Source of the DNA: Peptococcaceae bacterium BRH_c4b
Lineage (GTDB): Bacteria > Bacillota > Desulfotomaculia > Desulfotomaculales > Desulfocucumaceae
Reading direction: 5' to 3'
Length of the DNA: 64,000 bases
Assembly: GCA_000961595.1 (NCBI GenBank)
Contig: LADO01000039.1
Span: forward strand, 1-64,000
In this document: positions 29,461 through 40,524 of the stretch, piece after piece
Numbering within the stretch: the stretch's first letter is position 1
How the letters are laid out: each line of letters begins with the position of its first letter
Position numbers and translations under genes: made by a program
Notes under the pieces: generated by a model
Seen by the model: only the letters and a program-made list of their open reading frames with translations
The model's database searches: none
Told to the model about the DNA's origin: nothing

Positions 29461-29558
29461 GGGGGTGGATGGTGCCTGGTGGTGCTCCCGGTCTTCAAAA
29501 CCGGTCGTTGGGCGGCGTTCCCGTCCATGGTGAGTTCGATTCTCACACACTCCCGCCA
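29461..29558 (+). tRNA. selC: selenocysteine tRNA (anticodon TCA)
   Basis: This is a 98-nt tRNA. The extended acceptor GGGGGTG pairs with the 3' CACTCCC (one G-T wobble), with encoded CCA at 29556-29558. The anticodon stem CCGGT/ACCGG-type encloses TTCAAAA, so the anticodon is TCA. A long variable arm (TGGGCGG/CCGTCCA) and T-arm GTGAG/CTCAC complete the fold. It shows the host decodes UGA as selenocysteine. A tyrosine-recombinase element is integrated in its 3' half. Confidence 0.93.
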
Positions 29559-29721
29559 GCAAAAAGACAGATTTTAGACAGATTAATGCTTTTGGACAGA
29601 TTATAGACAAAATAACGGTGTGAATTCATACCATCTAAAATGCCTTCCGGTTATTTCATCTTCTCCCGGGTGCAAATTTGCACCTTATGAGCAATTTTCA
29701 AATCCGCCAACGTTGGCGGAT

Positions 29722-30120
29722 TTACATTTTTGATTTCCGTACCTTCTTCTTTTTTTCTTCCTGCTTCTTTTTACTGAATGTATCCTCCATGATATCCGCT
29801 GCCTGCCGGTCCTTGCTCTCCAGGAAGTGACTATATACATTTTGTGTTGTCGCTGAGGTGCTATGCCCCAACCTGCCGGCCACTGTCTCTATATCCATCC
29901 CCCGGCTTATTAAGAATGTTGCGCTGGTATGCCGCAGGCCGTGAAAAGGTATATGCGGCAGCTTATTTTTTTCAAGAAAATCCTTAATTTCGTCCATTAA
30001 AAACTCAGTCCGCCCGCGCATTCTGTTACTGAAAGCCCTCTCGGAAATTCCAGTCTTGGCAGCTATTTGTTTACCGATCAGATCTTGCCGGGCCATTTCT
30101 GCACGGAGATTTTTAAACAC
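29722..30120 (-). pseudogene. chimeric ORF: phage HTH regulator fused to integrase C-terminus
   Basis: The 132-residue product has two parts that do not belong together. Residues 1-47 (MFKNLRAEMARQDLIGKQIA, then TGISERAFSNRMRGRTEF) are the helix-turn-helix of a small phage regulator. From about residue 50, IPFHGLRHTSATFLISRG, then RLGHSTSATTQNVYSHF, is the catalytic end of a tyrosine recombinase (H-x-x-R, G-H, Y). The R-I motif and the arm-binding domains are missing. An internal deletion joining two genes in frame is the simplest explanation. As integrase it should be inactive. Confidence 0.8.
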
Positions 30121-30167
30121 TTTTGCACGCCTCCTTTTCTGTCATGGGGTGGGGTAGACACTCCAGA

Positions 30168-30471
30168 TCAAAGGGCCTGCCGCCAGCTAGGGCTATCACA
30201 GCCGTACCGTATGGTTAATCCCTCCAGGGCCACCCGGGTGTTGCCATTATCCAGCCGCTTGAATATCTCATTAACGTTAGCCTTGCCGGCATCAGTGAAG
30301 ATGTTCACAGCCCCGTATGTCAATGTTTTAGTTCCGGATATACTTGCCCAGGGGCTTACCTGTAGCGGCCAGCAGGTAGAGTGCAGAACTGTATTCCCGG
30401 TTGTTGCCGGTCTCCGCCTGGGCCTGGTACTCCTCAAAAAGGCTTTCGTGGTCAGCGTTTTTGAAGTACAT
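30168..30471 (-). pseudogene. frameshifted phage-type gene, DUF6075-like N-terminus
   Basis: A 47-residue start beginning MYFKNADHESLFEEYQAQAE ends at a stop at 30328. Homologous-looking continuation (VNEIFKRLDNGNTRVALEGL) is in another frame, ending at 30168. The split and the loss of central sequence suggest a decayed gene typical of prophages in this bacterial group. Family naming is tentative. Confidence 0.5.
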
Positions 30472-30626
30472 ACAATAACCCTCCTTTATAAATTTATCTT
30501 CTTTAATATTAATTTAATTACGCTAACATTAGTATAACATGTCTAATATTTGTGTCAAGTCATTTTTCTTTGACATGTCAAACTTTATTTCGTATAATTA
30601 AATAAATATTAAATAGGAGAGGGCAC

Positions 30627-30884
30627 ATGATAAGTTATAAACCTTTTCAAAAATTACTTATAGATAAAGGATTGAAGAAACAAGAAGTAATTAAAACCGC
30701 TGGCATATCTAACGCAACAATGGCAAAAATGAATACAAATGAATACGTTTCTCTGGAAGTAATTGATAAACTCTGCGTCGCCCTTAACTGCCAGCCGGGG
30801 GATTTACTAGAACATATCCCCGTCGAGAAGAAAACCGCAACCCCTCAGACATTTAACATAACCCTGCGCAATAATCCGGATTAG
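30627..30884 (+). CDS. Cro/CI-type helix-turn-helix regulator
   Basis: This is an 85-residue protein with an HTH domain at residues 5-65 (FQKLLIDKGLKKQEVIKTAG, then ISNATMAKMNTNEYVSLEVI, then LCVALNCQPGDLLE). This is the YozG/HTH_26-like group. AGGAGAGG stands upstream of the ATG. It is divergent from the integrase remnant and may have been the element's own regulator. Confidence 0.87.
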   Translation: MISYKPFQKLLIDKGLKKQEVIKTAGISNATMAKMNTNEYVSLEVIDKLCVALNCQPGDLLEHIPVEKKTATPQTFNITLRNNPD

Positions 30885-30934
30885 CCAGGGGCGGCGGATC
30901 TATTTGAATACATAAAAAAAGGAGGCTCCTGCCA

Positions 30935-31165
30935 ATGCAACGCAGATTTAAAGTTGTCCTTGCATGGGATAAAGAGGATAAGGTTTATGTTGCTACTGTG
31001 CCTGCTATTCCTGGTTGTTCTACCTTTGGTGATACTAAAGAGGAAGCCCTTGCTATGGCTGAGGATGCTATAAAGGTCACCATGGAAGGGCTTGCTGCCA
31101 CCGGGCAGCCGATACCTGAAGGTGATGTTGACGTAAGCATTGCTGAGGTCGTGGTTCCTGCATGA
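30935..31165 (+). CDS. hicB: HicB-family antitoxin
   Basis: This is a 76-residue protein: FKVVLAWDKEDKVYVATVPA, then GCSTFGDTKEEALAMAEDAI is the classic HicB N-terminal fold. It lacks a clear C-terminal DNA-binding domain. A strong AAGGAGG precedes the ATG. It overlaps hicA by four bases (ATGA), in hicB-hicA order. Confidence 0.93.
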   Translation: MQRRFKVVLAWDKEDKVYVATVPAIPGCSTFGDTKEEALAMAEDAIKVTMEGLAATGQPIPEGDVDVSIAEVVVPA

Positions 31166-31404
31166 TGATGTCTCCCAGGCTCCCGCGTGTAACGGGCAAA
31201 GAAGTTATTGCTGCATTAAAAAGAGCGGGCTTTGTAGTAGTAAGAGATAAAAGCGGAAGTCATAAATTTTTAAGCCATCCTGAAGATGCAACAAGATACG
31301 CTACCGTTGCCGTTCACAGTGGAAAAAATATTCCGGTTGGCACACTGAATGAAATCCTACGTACAGCCAGGCTTACTCCAGAAGAGTTTAAAAAATTACT
31401 ATAA
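31162..31404 (+). CDS. hicA: HicA-family mRNA interferase toxin
   Basis: This is an 80-residue protein: VTGKEVIAALKRAGFVVVRD, then SGSHKFL with the catalytic His, then VAVHSGKNIPVGTLNEILRT. HicA cuts mRNA and is neutralised by HicB. It looks intact, unlike most of the element, which fits post-segregational maintenance of an otherwise decaying island. Confidence 0.93.
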   Translation: MMMSPRLPRVTGKEVIAALKRAGFVVVRDKSGSHKFLSHPEDATRYATVAVHSGKNIPVGTLNEILRTARLTPEEFKKLL

Positions 31405-31581
31405 GCCCCGCTCCTCCCGGCCGCAACGCCGGGTTTTGCTTTTACTGCCCTCAATAATGAAGCGGGTAAGCCTTTCATACCTACCACCTAATTAAACCGC
31501 TTGGAGACGAGGCTTCACAGATTCCAAAATACCCATCCCTGTGCTCCGGAACATCAAATTGACATTACCGGTAATCTTATT

Positions 31582-32195
31582 TCATAAACCTATTGATGTT
31601 TTACCCTGCTTTTCAACTATGCTATAATCATACCCCAGGGCCTTTGCGGCTTCCTGAACAACTTTCAAGTAATCCTTTGCTGTGGTTGCCCCCTGCTTTA
31701 AGTTATTAATTACGCTTCGAGGCAGGTTAAAGCGTTCTTGCAGGCTCACAAAGTCACCTGACAGGGCCTCGCGCAGGGCAAACGCTCCACCTTCCAAACC
31801 TTCCACCGGGTTGATGCTGGCCAGGACTTCCGCCGTACGCATAAGCTCCTTAAAATCATCTATGTTGGTTCGGGCATAGGGTGCCAGGGAGGATGCAGCC
31901 GTCATCATCTCGGTATCTTGGAACATGGTTTTGACTGATTCCTGCATAGTCCACCGCATATATTCCATGGCTTTTTTTTGTGATTTTAGAACAGCCTCGA
32001 TGCCTACTGCCTGGAGTTCTGTCTGCGAGCTGCCCCGATGGTAGCACCACCCAGGGCGCCAACACCCATAGCCCCCAGGCCAATTGCGGCCATACCTTGC
32101 AGTGAGGTAACGCTGTTTTTGATTTTACCAATTGTCTTTGTGACTTCATCTTTGACACGAATAACAAGGCCTGACAACCGTATGCCCCAGGACAC
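31582..32195 (-). pseudogene. phage tail tape-measure protein remnant
   Basis: The start (MSWGIRLSGLVIRVKDEVTK, then GMAAIGLGAMGVGALGGATIGAA) is the N-terminus of a tail length protein. After about 60 residues the frame shifts near 32035, and ELQAVGIEAVLKSQKKAMEY continues in the frame that runs to 31582 (SLAPYARTNIDDFKELMRTA). The rest of this normally very long gene is absent. It shows a tailed phage contributed to the island. Confidence 0.7.
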
Positions 32196-32431
32196 GGAGC
32201 TTTGCCGTGGTTTAATAGTATATAAACCCTTGGTACTACTGGTTTTTATTCAACAACTGCCACTTGATGAATACTTGTCAAATCCCTTTACGAATAGTTC
32301 GATTTAACATCCATTTATCAACTGCCACTTGATGAATTATTTCATACTCTCTGTAAGGCTAGACCCTATTCGACAAGGGATTCTCCCTCTCTAGGGACGC
32401 TGCTGTTAAATCAGAGTAATTGACAAATAAA

Positions 32432-33130
32432 TCAGTTTAGAAAATCGTCTTCAACATTAAAAGGTATACAGAATGTTTTATTCCGGGTGCTACCGCTGGC
32501 TGAAAGTTCACCGCTGCCAACCATAACCTTTAACACCTGGCTGACTGACGTGTGAGATAGCCCCGTGAGATTCATAATGTCCTGCCGAGTGAAGCTTTTG
32601 CCATCGGCATAGTTTTCCATAATTATATGTTTGATGTGATCTTTCGCGTTTTTATCAAACGCTGGCGTTAAATCGATCTTCATTCGTACCCACTCCCGCC
32701 CGGCCTCGTCGGTTTCATCCTCCAAGGTATAGCTGAATGTCGAAAAACCTTGTAACCAGGATTGCAGGCTCCGTACTGTGAAAATGTCCTGACCATTGTC
32801 ACCGGCCTTTTTTTCAATACCAATCATACAGCCCACAAGCCGGTTCAGGACGCCTGCGCCAACCGAATCGTGCTGGCTCATGCTTATGGCATACTCACTC
32901 CGTTTCTTCTTTCGAGCGTGGTGCAGGATGACAATCGCAGCATTTGTTCTGTGGGCCAGCATACTTAGTTTTTCAGTAACTTTTTTCATTTCTGAATTGT
33001 CGTTTTCGTCCAAGCTGTGAAAACTGGTCAGGGTATCGACAAAGACGATCTGGGGATGCTCCTCTTCTATAAATAGCCTCTCGGCATTCGCCGAGCCAGT
33101 TGGGACAAGGGTTTCCCTGAACCAACTTTA
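32432..33130 (-). pseudogene. RecA-fold AAA ATPase (RepA/helicase-loader type) remnant
   Basis: The readable part begins upstream of any start codon: HPQIVFVDTLTSFHSLDEND is the Walker B strand, then MLAHRTNAAIVILHHARK, then SVGAGVLNRLVGCMIGIEKK. It closes with a winged-helix tail (SFTRQDIMNLTGLSHTSVSQ). A Walker A-like GSGKPLSQLA is seen in another frame near 33100. The N-terminal half is lost at the junction with the transposase region. Such ATPases are common in plasmid and phage replication modules. Confidence 0.65.
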
Positions 33131-33337
33131 TAGCATTCCTCCTACTTTGAGTGGGAGGTTTTTTGCTTTTCATCGAGATAAACTGGAAATTCGTGAATGA
33201 TAAATATTTTCTTGACTTCCCCAAAACGGCTAAAAAACACTTGACATTTTCTAAACACCCCCATAATCGCGCAAAAGGGATTTTTACCTTTGAATACAAA
33301 ATATGGGGTGATTGTTTGAAACCAGTGCTGATTTCAC

Positions 33338-34243
33338 ATGCAATGTATCAGGACCCTACGTTCGTATCTTCTCTTGCTCATGACGAAGACGGGAATCGGT
33401 GTTACCGAGTGGATTAATGAAATGAATCGTATTCCCTACTACGCCATCCTTAGCGGTTTCGAACCCGGGGATATTCCCGGTGTCGGTACCTTCTATGACT
33501 TCTTCAAACGCCTTTGGGCTGCCAGCGGAAATAATCTCAAACCTAATAAACAAAAGCGTAAACGCAAGCCCAAGAAAGGGAAAAAAGGCGAAAAAGCTCT
33601 TACCACCACGCCGGGTAAGGTCAAACGTCTGGTCGAGTGGGTGATTCGTCACGCCGCTAAGAAAACCGACTTGCCATCTGACCGCTTGTTCCACTTCTTC
33701 CAGACTCAAATCCTTACCCTTTCGGCGAAGCTTGGTTTACTTGGGGATATGAACGCCTTGAGTGCGGCAGGTGACGGCACACCCTTTGTCACTGCTGCTT
33801 ATCCCCGAAGTAAATCAACTTGTAGTTGTCGTGCCCAAGGCCTTGCTGATTGCAACCATCCTCGTATCTACTCCCAGCCCGACTGCGACTCGGGCTGGGA
33901 TAGCGCCCGGGAGAAGTACTTCAACGGTTACCATCTCTACATGATTTCTGCTGCGGACAGTCGATACGACTTGCCAATGTATCCAAGACTACAGCCTGCT
34001 TCCAGGCACGATTCTGTCAGTCTGGTCGTCAGTGCGGTTGAATTCAAGCAACGTTTTACCTTGGGCACGGTGGAAAAGATGCTGTTGGATGCCGCTCATG
34101 ATGCTGAGGCCATTTATCACCTGATAGATCACCAGAACATTGAGCCGTTTATTGATCTGAACAGCCGCAGTAAGAAGAATACAAAAACCAGCGGAGATAT
34201 TCACGCAAAACTAAAAAACATAAAAAATAGGCCACTTCCGTAA
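33338..34243 (+). pseudogene. truncated DDE-type transposase
   Basis: The readable product begins in RTLRSYLLLLMTKTGIGVTE and includes NRIPYYAILSGFEPGDIPGV and GTFYDFFKRLW, a block typical of a DDE transposase group. It continues through SAAGDGTPFVTAAYPRSKST and FNGYHLYMISAADSRYDLPM (catalytic D region). It stops soon after FIDLNSRSKKNTK, where the family goes on for another long stretch. The N-terminus lies in another frame upstream (33180-33340). It is inactive; the IS family was not determined. Confidence 0.65.
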
Positions 34244-34422
34244 AAAACTTTTTAGCAATAATATATCCCATAATATACCAGACAAAAAGACAAATAAAAA
34301 GACAGAAATTCATAAAAAACCATAATAAAATAGCCGTTTGCATAAAAACGACTATCAAATAAATCCCGTAATATCGAGGGTTAAACGTCTACATACAAAA
34401 GCGTAAAAATGGCTGTATCGTT

Positions 34423-34493
34423 CTTCAAAACCGGTCGTCGGGCAGCGTTCCTGTCCGTGGTGGGTTCGATTCCCACACACTCCCGCCAGCAAA
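34423..34493 (+). repeat. displaced 3' half of tRNA-Sec (element end, att copy)
   Basis: CTTCAAAACCGGTCG through CGCCAGCAAA repeats the anticodon-to-3'-end part of selC. Compared with the intact gene there are six substitutions: two pairs in the variable arm (T-A to C-G, G-C to A-T) and one pair in the T stem (A-T to G-C). All keep the helices, so this half was part of a working tRNA. No 5' half is attached. Confidence 0.9.
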
Positions 34494-34498
34494 GCCTT

Positions 34499-34536
34499 AA
34501 GGCGTTTGGGTTACACTATCCAAACGCCTTTTTATT
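34499..34536 (+). terminator. original selC terminator, now displaced
   Basis: AAGGCGTTTGG and CCAAACGCCTT form an 11-bp stem followed by TTTATTTT. It directly follows the displaced tRNA half, whereas no such hairpin follows the intact selC. This suggests the right-hand half is the native chromosomal one. Confidence 0.85.
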
Positions 34537-34720
34537 TTGCGTTAAAAAGCAAAACCGGTACGCCTAAAATGGCTGTCTTTAGCACAACCGGATTAATTTA
34601 GACCGACCGGTTTTTTAACCCCCTTCCAGCCAAATAAGGAGGTTATATTCATAATTAGATATCATCTTCCAAGAGATTCCTATTATTAATGCTATTACTT
34701 TAAGAAAGAATACTTTTGAG

Positions 34721-36919: not shown

Positions 36920-37939
36920 CTAGTTTCTTGACCCGATAGTCTCCAACTGGTCCAAAAGTTCCTTTTCCCCGGCTGTCCAGAGGCAGTATAGGGCAAGAGC
37001 CAGGTTAAAGAGGGCAAAGGCAAGATACATCGTATTATACGAACCCATATTGAAAGCCAGATACAGAGCAGCCATTATTACCGAGGCTGTTAAATAACTT
37101 ATACCCTTTTTTCTGCCACTCAATGCCTCTCTAAACATCCTTTTTCGGTTAAGGTGGCCGGGTGCTACTTTCATCTGTTCCGGCTTGCTACCTTCAACGC
37201 TGAAAATTTCATGTCCAGCCTGTCTGGCCAGTTCCACCAGCTTAACCACATTTACCAGCCGAATGGCATAGCCCTTGCCGGTCTCCAGGGCTACACTTCC
37301 GGCTTCTTCAGAAAATTCACCGGTGCTAATCATAATCCCACTGCGAAGCCCCGACCTTTCTATCTCCCCGATAAACGACAACACCTGCTCCGGGCCGGTC
37401 TCCTTACTGTCACCGCCCGGCAAATCAGTGTTAATAACCACCGGGATACCATTGCAAACTGCACGCAGGGAGATATCCCTCCGCTCAAGGTCTTCCGCCC
37501 GAACAGCATGTACATCACTGCAATAGGGCAGACCGCACATTATCTGGCGGACCAATTCGGTAAACTGATCCGGACTGGTCATACCCTGAATTTTAGCCAG
37601 AGCCTCTTTTCCGGCCAGCCATATCCTTCTGTGTAAAATATAAATATTTTTTTTCCTGGTTTTAATTACATTAGCGATAATAACCTCTACCGCCCACAAG
37701 GGCAACGCGTAAATCAACGCCTTTACCGGGTTTCCCACTGCACCCTGGATAAAAAGCAGGGTCAGCAGCATGGTCACCATCAGTGTTCCATAAAAATCAA
37801 TCCGGCGGGCCAGCCGGTTCCTGCCGTCGTCAGCTGGCTTAATATAATAGCGCATCAGCCTGCCGGTGCGCCTTTTTTTTCGCCATCCATCCAATTCAAG
37901 ACTAAACAGCCTTTTACCAGCCCGGTATAAACCTGTCAC
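36920..37939 (-). CDS. membrane protein with Mrr-like restriction-endonuclease-fold domain
   Basis: This is a 339-residue protein. Two membrane helices lie near residues 50-90, then a soluble part with TSPDQFTELVRQIMCGLPYC, then GIPVVINTDLPGG, then GLRSGIMISTGEFSEEAGSV resembles the Mrr/DUF2034 catalytic fold. Two further membrane helices lie near 290-330. Such membrane-anchored Mrr-like proteins are of uncertain function. Not all PD-(D/E)XK residues could be placed. Confidence 0.65.
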   Translation of the reverse strand: MTGLYRAGKRLFSLELDGWRKKRRTGRLMRYYIKPADDGRNRLARRIDFYGTLMVTMLLTLLFIQGAVGNPVKALIYALPLWAVEVIIANVIKTRKKNIYILHRRIWLAGKEALAKIQGMTSPDQFTELVRQIMCGLPYCSDVHAVRAEDLERRDISLRAVCNGIPVVINTDLPGGDSKETGPEQVLSFIGEIERSGLRSGIMISTGEFSEEAGSVALETGKGYAIRLVNVVKLVELARQAGHEIFSVEGSKPEQMKVAPGHLNRKRMFREALSGRKKGISYLTASVIMAALYLAFNMGSYNTMYLAFALFNLALALYCLWTAGEKELLDQLETIGSRN

Positions 37940-37971
37940 CGATAAACACCCCCGTTTAATTGTTTCTTAGA

Positions 37972-38047
37972 TTGGGGACATTCCTTCTCGCATCTGTTAA
38001 TAAAGAAGGACTTTATCCTAACCAAAGAAGGTGTGTCCCCTTTCCTT
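37972..38047. repeat. GGGGACA-type palindromic repeat, copy 1
   Basis: TTGGGGACATTCC stands at one end and GGTGTGTCCCCTTT at the other, as imperfect terminal inverted repeats around a 40-bp core. The same ends occur at 44131-44187 and, reversed, at 51304-51360. It resembles a small MITE or REP element. Confidence 0.75.
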
Positions 38048-38150
38048 ACTAATTATTCCCACTATGCTATGAATAATACTCCAGTGAATATGTCGGTATA
38101 AAAAGCAGCCAACTATTAAAACTAAGCATAATGACCAGGAGGTGTGGTGT

Positions 38151-38708
38151 TTGGACATTGATGGCAGCGAAATGCAATCGGGGTTCAGAAAACTTGACCA
38201 CGTAATAGAAGTGTACGGACAAAAACCGGGGCAACTGATTAGGGTGCTGCAGGGCGCCCAGGAAATTTTCGGCTATTTACCAGAGGAAGTACAAACATAT
38301 ATAGCAGGCAAAATGAACTTACCCGTGAGCGAGGTCAACGGGGTGGTTACTTTTTACTCCCTTTTCAGTACTCAACCCATAGGGAAAAATGCTATCAACG
38401 TCTGCCTGGGAACCGCCTGCTACGTTCAGGGCGCGGCAGGGGTACTGGAGGACTTCAGGCGGGAACTGGAACTTAAAGACGGCGATACCACGGAAGACGG
38501 TCTTTTTACCGTGAAAAGCACCCGCTGCATAGGAGCCTGCGGGCTGGCCCCTGTACTTACGGTAAACGATCATGTACACGGCAAGTTGAGCCGCAAAGAT
38601 GTGAGTAAGATACTGCGCAAATACAGGCGGGAGGCGGAGGTAAAAAGAGATGATCAAGACTATGCAGGACTTGCAGGAGATCAGGAACAGCTTCCTGCCG
38701 GACCTTGA
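38151..38708 (+). CDS. NuoE-like [2Fe-2S] subunit of NADH-dependent oxidoreductase
   Basis: This is a 185-residue protein of the 24-kDa NADH dehydrogenase/HndA type. Cys ligands are in NVCLGTACYVQGA and STRCIGACGLAPV. AGGAGG (38137-38142) lies eight bases before TTG 38151; the GTG at 38142 overlaps this site and is unlikely. It overlaps the next gene by 59 bases, a long overlap. The two form an electron-transfer module to NAD(P). Confidence 0.9.
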   Translation: MDIDGSEMQSGFRKLDHVIEVYGQKPGQLIRVLQGAQEIFGYLPEEVQTYIAGKMNLPVSEVNGVVTFYSLFSTQPIGKNAINVCLGTACYVQGAAGVLEDFRRELELKDGDTTEDGLFTVKSTRCIGACGLAPVLTVNDHVHGKLSRKDVSKILRKYRREAEVKRDDQDYAGLAGDQEQLPAGP

Positions 38709-40524
38709 AGTCAGGCTGGGGAAAAAGGACTCCGCTCAGGAATACCAGGTGATGGTCTGCACCGGTACCGGATGTTCTTCCTCCGGGAGTCACCCCCTGA
38801 TTAAAGAATTGGAAGAAAGTATAGCAAGTTCGGATTTAAATGAACGGGTCAGGGTCTTTAAAACGGGGTGTTTCGGTTTTTGCAAACTGGGGCCGATTGT
38901 GGTTGTTCATCCGGGAAACGTATTCTACTGCCTGGTGGAGCAAAAGGATATCGCTGAACTTATGGAGGAACATTTCGACAGGGGCAGGATTGTTGAAAGG
39001 CTGCTCTACCAGGAACCCGCCAGCGGGGTACGGAAAAAAAGGCTGCAGGACATTCATTTCTTCAATGCCCAGCAAAGGGTGGCGCTGCGCAACTGCGGGC
39101 TGATCAACCCCGAGAATATCAAAGAATACATAGCCACCGGGGGATATTTCGCCCTGGCGGATGTGCTGGCCAAAGGAGAGCCGGAATGGGTTATAGACGC
39201 CGTGAAACGCTCAGGATTAAGGGGACGCGGCGGCGGCGGCTTCCCGACCAGCAAAAAGTGGGAGGCCGCAGCCCTGGCGGAAGGCTCTCCCAAATATGTG
39301 GTGTGTAACGCCGATGAGGGCGATCCGGGAGCCTTTATGGACAGGAGCATTCTGGAAGGGGACCCTCACAGCGTACTGGAGGCCATGACCATTGCTGGTT
39401 TTGCCGTGGGGGCGGATGAAGGCTACATTTATGTCCGGGCCGAATACCCCATTGCCGTGAACAGGCTGGAACATGCCATCCGCCAGTCCCGGGAAGCCGG
39501 CCTACTGGGCAAAAACATACTGGGTTCCGGTTTCAGCTTTGATATTGACCTGCGACTGGGGGCAGGGGCTTTTGTCTGCGGAGAGGAAACCGCCCTGCTG
39601 CGTTCCGCCACCGGCCAGAGGGGAGAGCCCATGCCCAGGCCTCCTTACCCCGCCCAGTGCGGCTTATGGGGTCAACCCACTCTGTTAAGCAATGTAGAAA
39701 CCTTTACCAATATACCGTCCATATTTCGCCACGGCCCCGCATGGTATGCCGCCATGGGCACGGAGTCCAGCAAAGGCACCAAAGTTTTTTCCCTGGCCGG
39801 CAAGATTGTAAATACCGGACTGATCGAGGTGCCCATGGGAACCACCCTGCGCCAAATTATATTCGACATCGGTGGGGGAATACCGAATGGCAAAAAATTC
39901 AAGGCAGTACAAACCGGAGGTCCCTCCGGCGGTGTTATACCAGAAAAACATCTGGATACTCCCATTGACTATGAGTCGCTGAAAGCCATAGGCTCTATGA
40001 TGGGGTCCGGTGGTTTAATCGTCCTGGATGAGGACGACTGCATGGTGGACATAGCTAAATTTTATTTGCAATTCAGCCAGGACGAATCATGCGGCAAATG
40101 CACCCCCTGCCGGGTGGGCACCAAGCGCATGCTGGAAATGCTGGAGAGAATAACCGGGGGTAAGGGCACACTAGAGGAACTTGACGAACTGCAAGATCTG
40201 GCCCGGGAGGTGATGGACGCTTCTCTGTGCGGACTGGGCCAGACGGCCCCCAACCCGGTGCTATCCACCATCAAATATTTTAGAGACGAGTATGAGGCCC
40301 ATATTTTACATAAAAATTGCCCGGCTGGAGTGTGCCGGGCGTTACTGGATTACACCGTGGATGAGGAAAAATGCATTTCCTGCGGACTTTGCGCCCGGGC
40401 CTGTGTGGCCGAGGCTATCAGCGGGGATAAAAAGGGGCAGCCCTATTTTATCGACCGCCAGAAGTGCCTGAAATGCGGGGTATGCCAGGCCAAATGCCCG
40501 AAAGAAGCGATATATGTTTCGTAA
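38650..40524 (+). CDS. NuoF-like flavin/Fe-S subunit with two extra [4Fe-4S] sites
   Basis: This is a 624-residue protein. A thioredoxin-like [2Fe-2S] domain comes first (CTGTGCSSSGSHPL). The NADH/FMN domain follows with GLRGRGGGGFPTSKKWE and CNADEGDPGAFMDR, then the N3-type cluster ESCGKCTPCRVGTKRM. The C-terminus adds CISCGLCARACVAEAIS and CLKCGVCQAKCPKEAI. This HydB/HndC-type subunit is used by bifurcating hydrogenases and formate dehydrogenases, but no catalytic partner gene is adjacent, so its partner is elsewhere or it acts as an NADH:ferredoxin module (inference). Confidence 0.93.
   Translation: MIKTMQDLQEIRNSFLPDLEVRLGKKDSAQEYQVMVCTGTGCSSSGSHPLIKELEESIASSDLNERVRVFKTGCFGFCKLGPIVVVHPGNVFYCLVEQKDIAELMEEHFDRGRIVERLLYQEPASGVRKKRLQDIHFFNAQQRVALRNCGLINPENIKEYIATGGYFALADVLAKGEPEWVIDAVKRSGLRGRGGGGFPTSKKWEAAALAEGSPKYVVCNADEGDPGAFMDRSILEGDPHSVLEAMTIAGFAVGADEGYIYVRAEYPIAVNRLEHAIRQSREAGLLGKNILGSGFSFDIDLRLGAGAFVCGEETALLRSATGQRGEPMPRPPYPAQCGLWGQPTLLSNVETFTNIPSIFRHGPAWYAAMGTESSKGTKVFSLAGKIVNTGLIEVPMGTTLRQIIFDIGGGIPNGKKFKAVQTGGPSGGVIPEKHLDTPIDYESLKAIGSMMGSGGLIVLDEDDCMVDIAKFYLQFSQDESCGKCTPCRVGTKRMLEMLERITGGKGTLEELDELQDLAREVMDASLCGLGQTAPNPVLSTIKYFRDEYEAHILHKNCPAGVCRALLDYTVDEEKCISCGLCARACVAEAISGDKKGQPYFIDRQKCLKCGVCQAKCPKEAIYVS

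Follow-up and report, generated by a model that had tools for sequence, protein, structure and literature searches.

A prophage-like remnant in selC lies between two tRNA-Sec 3′ halves that differ only by compensated base pairs

The window analysed here comprises 64,000 nucleotides of Peptococcaceae bacterium BRH_c4b (contig LADO01000039.1). An intact selC gene, with anticodon TCA and all stems paired, lies at 29461–29558 on the forward strand; ARAGORN and Infernal gave a single tRNA-Sec there (67.5 bits) and made no tRNA call at the right copy or elsewhere between the copies. A selB gene is present, which points to selC being in use. A displaced selC 3′ half is found on the same strand at 34422–34493, with no 5′ half in front of it. 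Its homology begins at the anticodon loop and ends 5 nt beyond the CCA, within an ungapped repeat of 29489–29563 against 34419–34493. An initial sequence-only reading of this DNA had given its span as 34423–34493, of which the end stands while the start moves to 34422. That reading had also described a terminator directly after the displaced half and none after the intact gene, and this is what we find: a hairpin at 34499–34530 is followed by a T tail (terminator at 34499–34536, forward strand), whereas behind the intact gene no terminator-like hairpin lies closer than 29700–29723 (forward strand). The right-hand terminator is homologous to that following selC of genome G068, and we read it as the native selC terminator.

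Within the tRNA, the two halves differ at six bases, which make up exactly three compensatory pairs, two in the variable arm and one in the T stem, as the initial reading had claimed. Pair 29509:29527 is T-A in the left copy and C-G in the right, pair 29514:29522 is G-C against A-T, and T-stem pair 29533:29543 is A-T against G-C. No stem pair is lost, either in the intact gene or in a tRNA composed of its 5′ half and the displaced half. To put this in context, we compared 39 distinct selC genes of 98 nt from the order of the host, in which no other stem pairs vary as much as the three that differ here. Both states of each occur naturally: GC in 21, TA in eight, CG in five, GT in four and TT in one for 29509:29527; GC in 25 and AT in 14 for 29514:29522; AT in 27 and GC in 12 for 29533:29543. 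Because the differences fall on these pairs, the copies look, by comparison with related genes, like two natural alleles rather than one decayed copy. Decay of displaced halves after integration does happen elsewhere, with a 12-nt deletion plus an unpaired change in G079 and one change in G083. Here all six differences are compensated and sit on naturally variable pairs, and in simulations of six random substitutions three paired double changes arose in approximately 1 in 100,000 trials, none of which kept all pairs. The initial observation stands, and we give simple decay of the displaced half practically no credence.

The order hemA-cysG-hepS-selC is conserved across many relatives. On the other side, REase-nuoE-nuoF follow selC in G005 and G083, and the same genes lie at 36920–40524 in the window. 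Gene order is therefore conserved on both sides of the element and both flanks are native. For the right flank this is also apparent at the nucleotide level, as 34492–34652 (forward strand) is identical at 127 of 159 positions (80%) to the DNA directly after selC of G068, a genome with a single selC (score 177; shuffle maximum 51). Contiguous flanks are thus seen in G005 by gene order and in G068 by the right junction, both from other genera; in the same-genus genome G001 (84% complete), selC and both flanks are absent. The proposed layout of intact tRNA, element, displaced half and native flank is accordingly borne out. The DNA after the intact copy has its best matches at selC loci that bear signs of related elements, namely G102, which has an integrase remnant, and G099, with which the GACAGATTTTAG end is shared. 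The stretch after the selC terminator, 34540–34652, is conserved with G068 (locus L179) despite the different family and is possibly an unknown RNA or a leader; a search for an Rfam match to it gave none.

The 4.9 kb between the copies is the remnant of a dead prophage or phage-like element, which holds phage-type genes, a shortened integrase and the two clusters of integrase arm-type sites. On the reverse strand at 29722–30120, an integrase C-terminal remnant (aa 47–132; PF00589, E 1.3e-10, and PHROG matches) is fused in frame to a repressor-like N-terminus (aa 1–46). Approximately 300 N-terminal integrase residues are missing, so the enzyme is presumably inactive and the element immobile. 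A small open reading frame follows (30168–30437, reverse strand); G096 has a homologue of it just past its selC (64% over 42 aa). On the forward strand lie a Cro/C1-type regulator of the HTH_26 family (30627–30884; PF13443, E 1.2e-19), a HicB-like antitoxin (30935–31165; PF15919) and a HicA toxin (31162–31404; PF07927). Between the integrase side and the regulator, at 30531–30598, are divergent sigma-70-like promoters, one matching the consensus at 12 of 12 positions, in an arrangement resembling a lysogeny switch. An open reading frame at 31582–31968 (reverse strand) has no family match, and support was sought for a tape-measure identity but none was found. Further right are the C-terminal piece of a RepA/primase-helicase-like ATPase (32432–33013, reverse strand; PF13481 below cut-off, with PHROG primase/helicase matches) and a partial IS1182-like transposase (33338–34243, forward strand; NF033551, E 3.4e-6, far below cut-off). 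The sequence AACTGCCACTTGATGAATA occurs twice, at 32248–32297 and 32313–32362, some 65 nt apart, and may mark the ends of a lost insertion sequence. Matches in the region to CRISPR-DR47, HgcG and a microRNA were below cut-off and are ascribed to chance.

The closest relatives of the integrase are those of G082 (93% identity over 70 aa, residues 315–384), G081 and the viral contig L184. Taken over 70–85 aa, the remaining C-terminus is 80–93% identical to a family (G113, G081 and G082) that we refer to as Trp-type, since the readable attachment sites of the relatives are mostly in tRNA-Trp (L184, G113, G114, G081 and G102). In the viral contig G113 (IMGVR 3300007037_000016), an intact tRNA-Trp and a displaced Trp half lie 14.8 kb apart with a prophage between them. 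A second viral contig, G114 (IMGVR 3300000568_000480), carries a P arm, a Trp half and a P′ arm, and a 56-nt end repeat suggests that it is circular. In L184/L196 (IMGVR 3300033145_003417), a tRNA-Trp half lies between two distinct integrase genes that point towards each other. Genome G102 (loci L168 and L169) has integrase remnants of this family directly after both selC and tRNA-Trp. In G081, the only differences between two tRNA-Trp 3′ halves, L263/L289 (contig C162) and L166 (contig C185), are two compensatory T-stem pairs, a further instance of the pattern seen at selC; trpT genes of congeners include both states. The half that completes the gene in G081 has the same sequence as trpT in G029, a close relative (93% DNA identity beside hepS). 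We considered G081 as an empty-site test and set it aside, because the contig with the second Trp half has a flank that does not adjoin trpT in G029.

A search of 113 genomes of the host's order revealed a second selC 3′ half on the same contig as selC in G009, G034, G079 and G083, and on another contig in G066. The displaced halves of G083, G009 and G066 begin with CTTCAAA, exactly where the anticodon loop begins, and that of G079 retains the loop start. Two partial copies in one locus could also be left by a second complete selC or by a local duplication, with no site-specific integration involved. This would not explain why the right copy lacks a preceding 5′ half and starts its homology at the anticodon loop, why an integrase remnant and arm sites lie within the element ends, or why the same layout is seen in G034, G079, G083 and G009, and we regard such an origin as very improbable. 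In two loci, L116:13982 (G034) and L125:6825 (G097), a degenerate 5′-half-like sequence precedes displaced selC copies. Some genomes have a selC 3′ half whose variable arm is short, and its occurrence is patchy (L243 of G037, L168 of G102, L230 of G094 and L028 of G019, against L181 of G101); G037 and G101 have the 3′ flank in common but carry different halves, as would result from an exchange of halves. A search of IMG/VR for an attP carrying selC gave no match to the selC pattern, while two matches to a selC-plus-arm pattern lay inside phage genes and were dismissed as chance.

Integration into selC leaves the question of which 3′ half belonged to the host. Relatives do not decide this. Among 79 selC genes, the left copy is the nearer one for 44 and the right for 28, with seven ties; in the host's own family the numbers are two, two and one. 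Those nearer the left include G002, G005 and G068, while most Pelotomaculaceae, as well as G006 and G007, are nearer the right. Over 66 nt, selC of G030 matches the left half without a difference; the right half is 97% identical to G013. The alignment that the sequence-only reading had put forward as a check therefore does not single out the right half, and similarity to relatives was rejected as an arbiter. The direction depends instead on where strands were exchanged. Two stretches are identical between the copies: a block at 29492–29508 (forward strand), with the anticodon loop (29493–29499) inside it, and a 20-nt block at the 3′ end (29544–29563). A crossover in the first would make the left 3′ half that of the element, while a crossover in the second would leave it native.

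Putative arm-type sites lie on both sides of the core. On the P′ side, GACAGA/GACAAA repeats start at 29566, 29577, 29595 and 29606 (29566–29611, forward strand), and their spacing of 11, 18 and 11 nt is the same in the Trp-type relatives. On the P side, GACAAA/GACAGA repeats start at 34281, 34289 and 34301 (34281–34306, forward strand), in an arm homologous to those of G113 (similarity 161; shuffle maximum 71) and G081 (125; shuffle maximum 73). The P-side sites precede the anticodon loop by 142, 134 and 122 nt in the window, by 143, 134 and 122 nt in G113 and by 134 and 122 nt in G081. These distances agree although the Sec half, at 66 nt, is 21 nt longer than the Trp half, at 45 nt, so that spacing is constant to the loop and not to the 3′ end. 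The P′ repeats begin approximately 2 nt past the 3′-end block, which leaves too little room for the usual kind of core, and they would overlap it. For these two reasons, together with the displaced halves in other islands that start at the same base, we place strand exchange at the anticodon loop with considerable confidence, within 29492–29508, the remainder of the left 3′ half (29509–29558) then probably being supplied by the element.

Exchange in the 3′-end block would instead make the left selC wholly native and the right half the element's copy. The identical block reaches 5 nt past the CCA, and such a crossover would also account for GCAAA just beyond the CCA in both copies. The family members G002 and G005 and the right-flank relative G068 are nearer the left half, the right half resembles selC of Pelotomaculaceae, a group with related selC elements, and the gene-completing half of G081 trpT, equal to that of G029, fits this version better. 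Set against this are the loop-anchored P-side spacing in Sec and Trp elements, the crowding of the core by the P′ repeats and the loop-starting displaced halves of several islands, which it does not predict. We consider it rather unlikely. With exchange at the anticodon loop preferred, the intact selC would be a hybrid of a native 5′ half and an element-supplied 3′ half, and the displaced half the host's own. Of the claim that the element's 3′ half now completes selC while the native half was pushed 5 kb away, the layout is confirmed; the direction is deduced from the anatomy of the attachment site, in particular the loop-anchored arm spacing.

The history that we think probable is as follows. 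A temperate phage-like element would have inserted into selC when its tyrosine integrase recombined the anticodon loop with an attP that brought along a complete selC 3′ half acquired from an earlier host. Integration would have rebuilt a working hybrid tRNA at the left and left the host 3′ half and terminator at the right. The halves would have evolved in selC genes of different hosts before meeting, giving the three compensated pair differences, and an internal deletion would later have removed most of the integrase and immobilized the element. The integrase belongs to a family found, where members could be placed, mostly at tRNA-Trp, whose anticodon arm is almost the same as that of tRNA-Sec. 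In this host, the trpT core CGGTCTCCAAAACCG has one other site in the genome at one mismatch or fewer, and that site is selC. The element departs from its Trp-type relatives in using selC, whose anticodon arm is one base off the host trpT core. More broadly, we lean slightly towards a scenario in which a tRNA-Trp-based integrase family has repeatedly switched to tRNA-Sec via the near-identical anticodon arm (CGGTCTYCAAAACCG), moving from tRNAs without to one with a long variable arm and carrying foreign selC 3′ halves from one bacterial family to another. Among the papers searched, none describes an integrase with paired tRNA-Trp and tRNA-Sec targets. For archaeal integrases, a review reports that target switches stay either among the tRNAs that have an extra arm or among those that lack one (PMC8371274).

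On this reading, half of a single-copy tRNA gene has been exchanged by a mobile element for the allele of another lineage, so that a tRNA gene can be a mosaic of two histories. The kinship of selC and tRNA-Trp elements also offers a testable route for integrase target change in which the anticodon arm is retained as the core.

Among known systems, the closest architecture is the type A island of Islander, which lists more than 2,000 islands with an anticodon-centred site (PMC4383910). As in those islands, an intact tRNA gene lies at one end and a 3′ fragment starting in the anticodon region at the other (at 34422/34423, TCTTCAAA), a tyrosine integrase gene lies inside, arm-type repeats flank the core, and the flanks are contiguous at the empty sites of relatives (G005 and G068, both of other genera). 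In those islands the split gene is restored by the island, as the arm spacing suggests for selC here. The present element departs from them in having compensated pair differences between its halves, an integrase reduced to a C-terminal remnant with mobility lost, and selC as its target. The attP of mycobacteriophage Boilgate likewise carries a tRNA 3′ half with several mismatches to the host half (attB-4) and with folding kept; that case involves tRNA-Lys of Mycobacterium smegmatis and an active phage with PCR-confirmed integration (PMC10865867). In tRNA-dependent lysogeny (PMC10865867), by contrast, the phage supplies a full tRNA gene and the target is not rebuilt, whereas here selC is rebuilt and there is no second tRNA. 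The Trp-type prophages (G113, G114, G081 and L184) share a related integrase, the P′ spacing and a half starting at the anticodon loop, and G113 and G081 also the P arm, but they carry a tRNA-Trp half and a terminator between half and P′ arm. Restoration of a tRNA gene by an attP half is an established mechanism, and mismatches that keep the fold have already been published for Boilgate (PMC10865867); less ordinary here is the use of both tRNA-Trp and tRNA-Sec by one integrase family.
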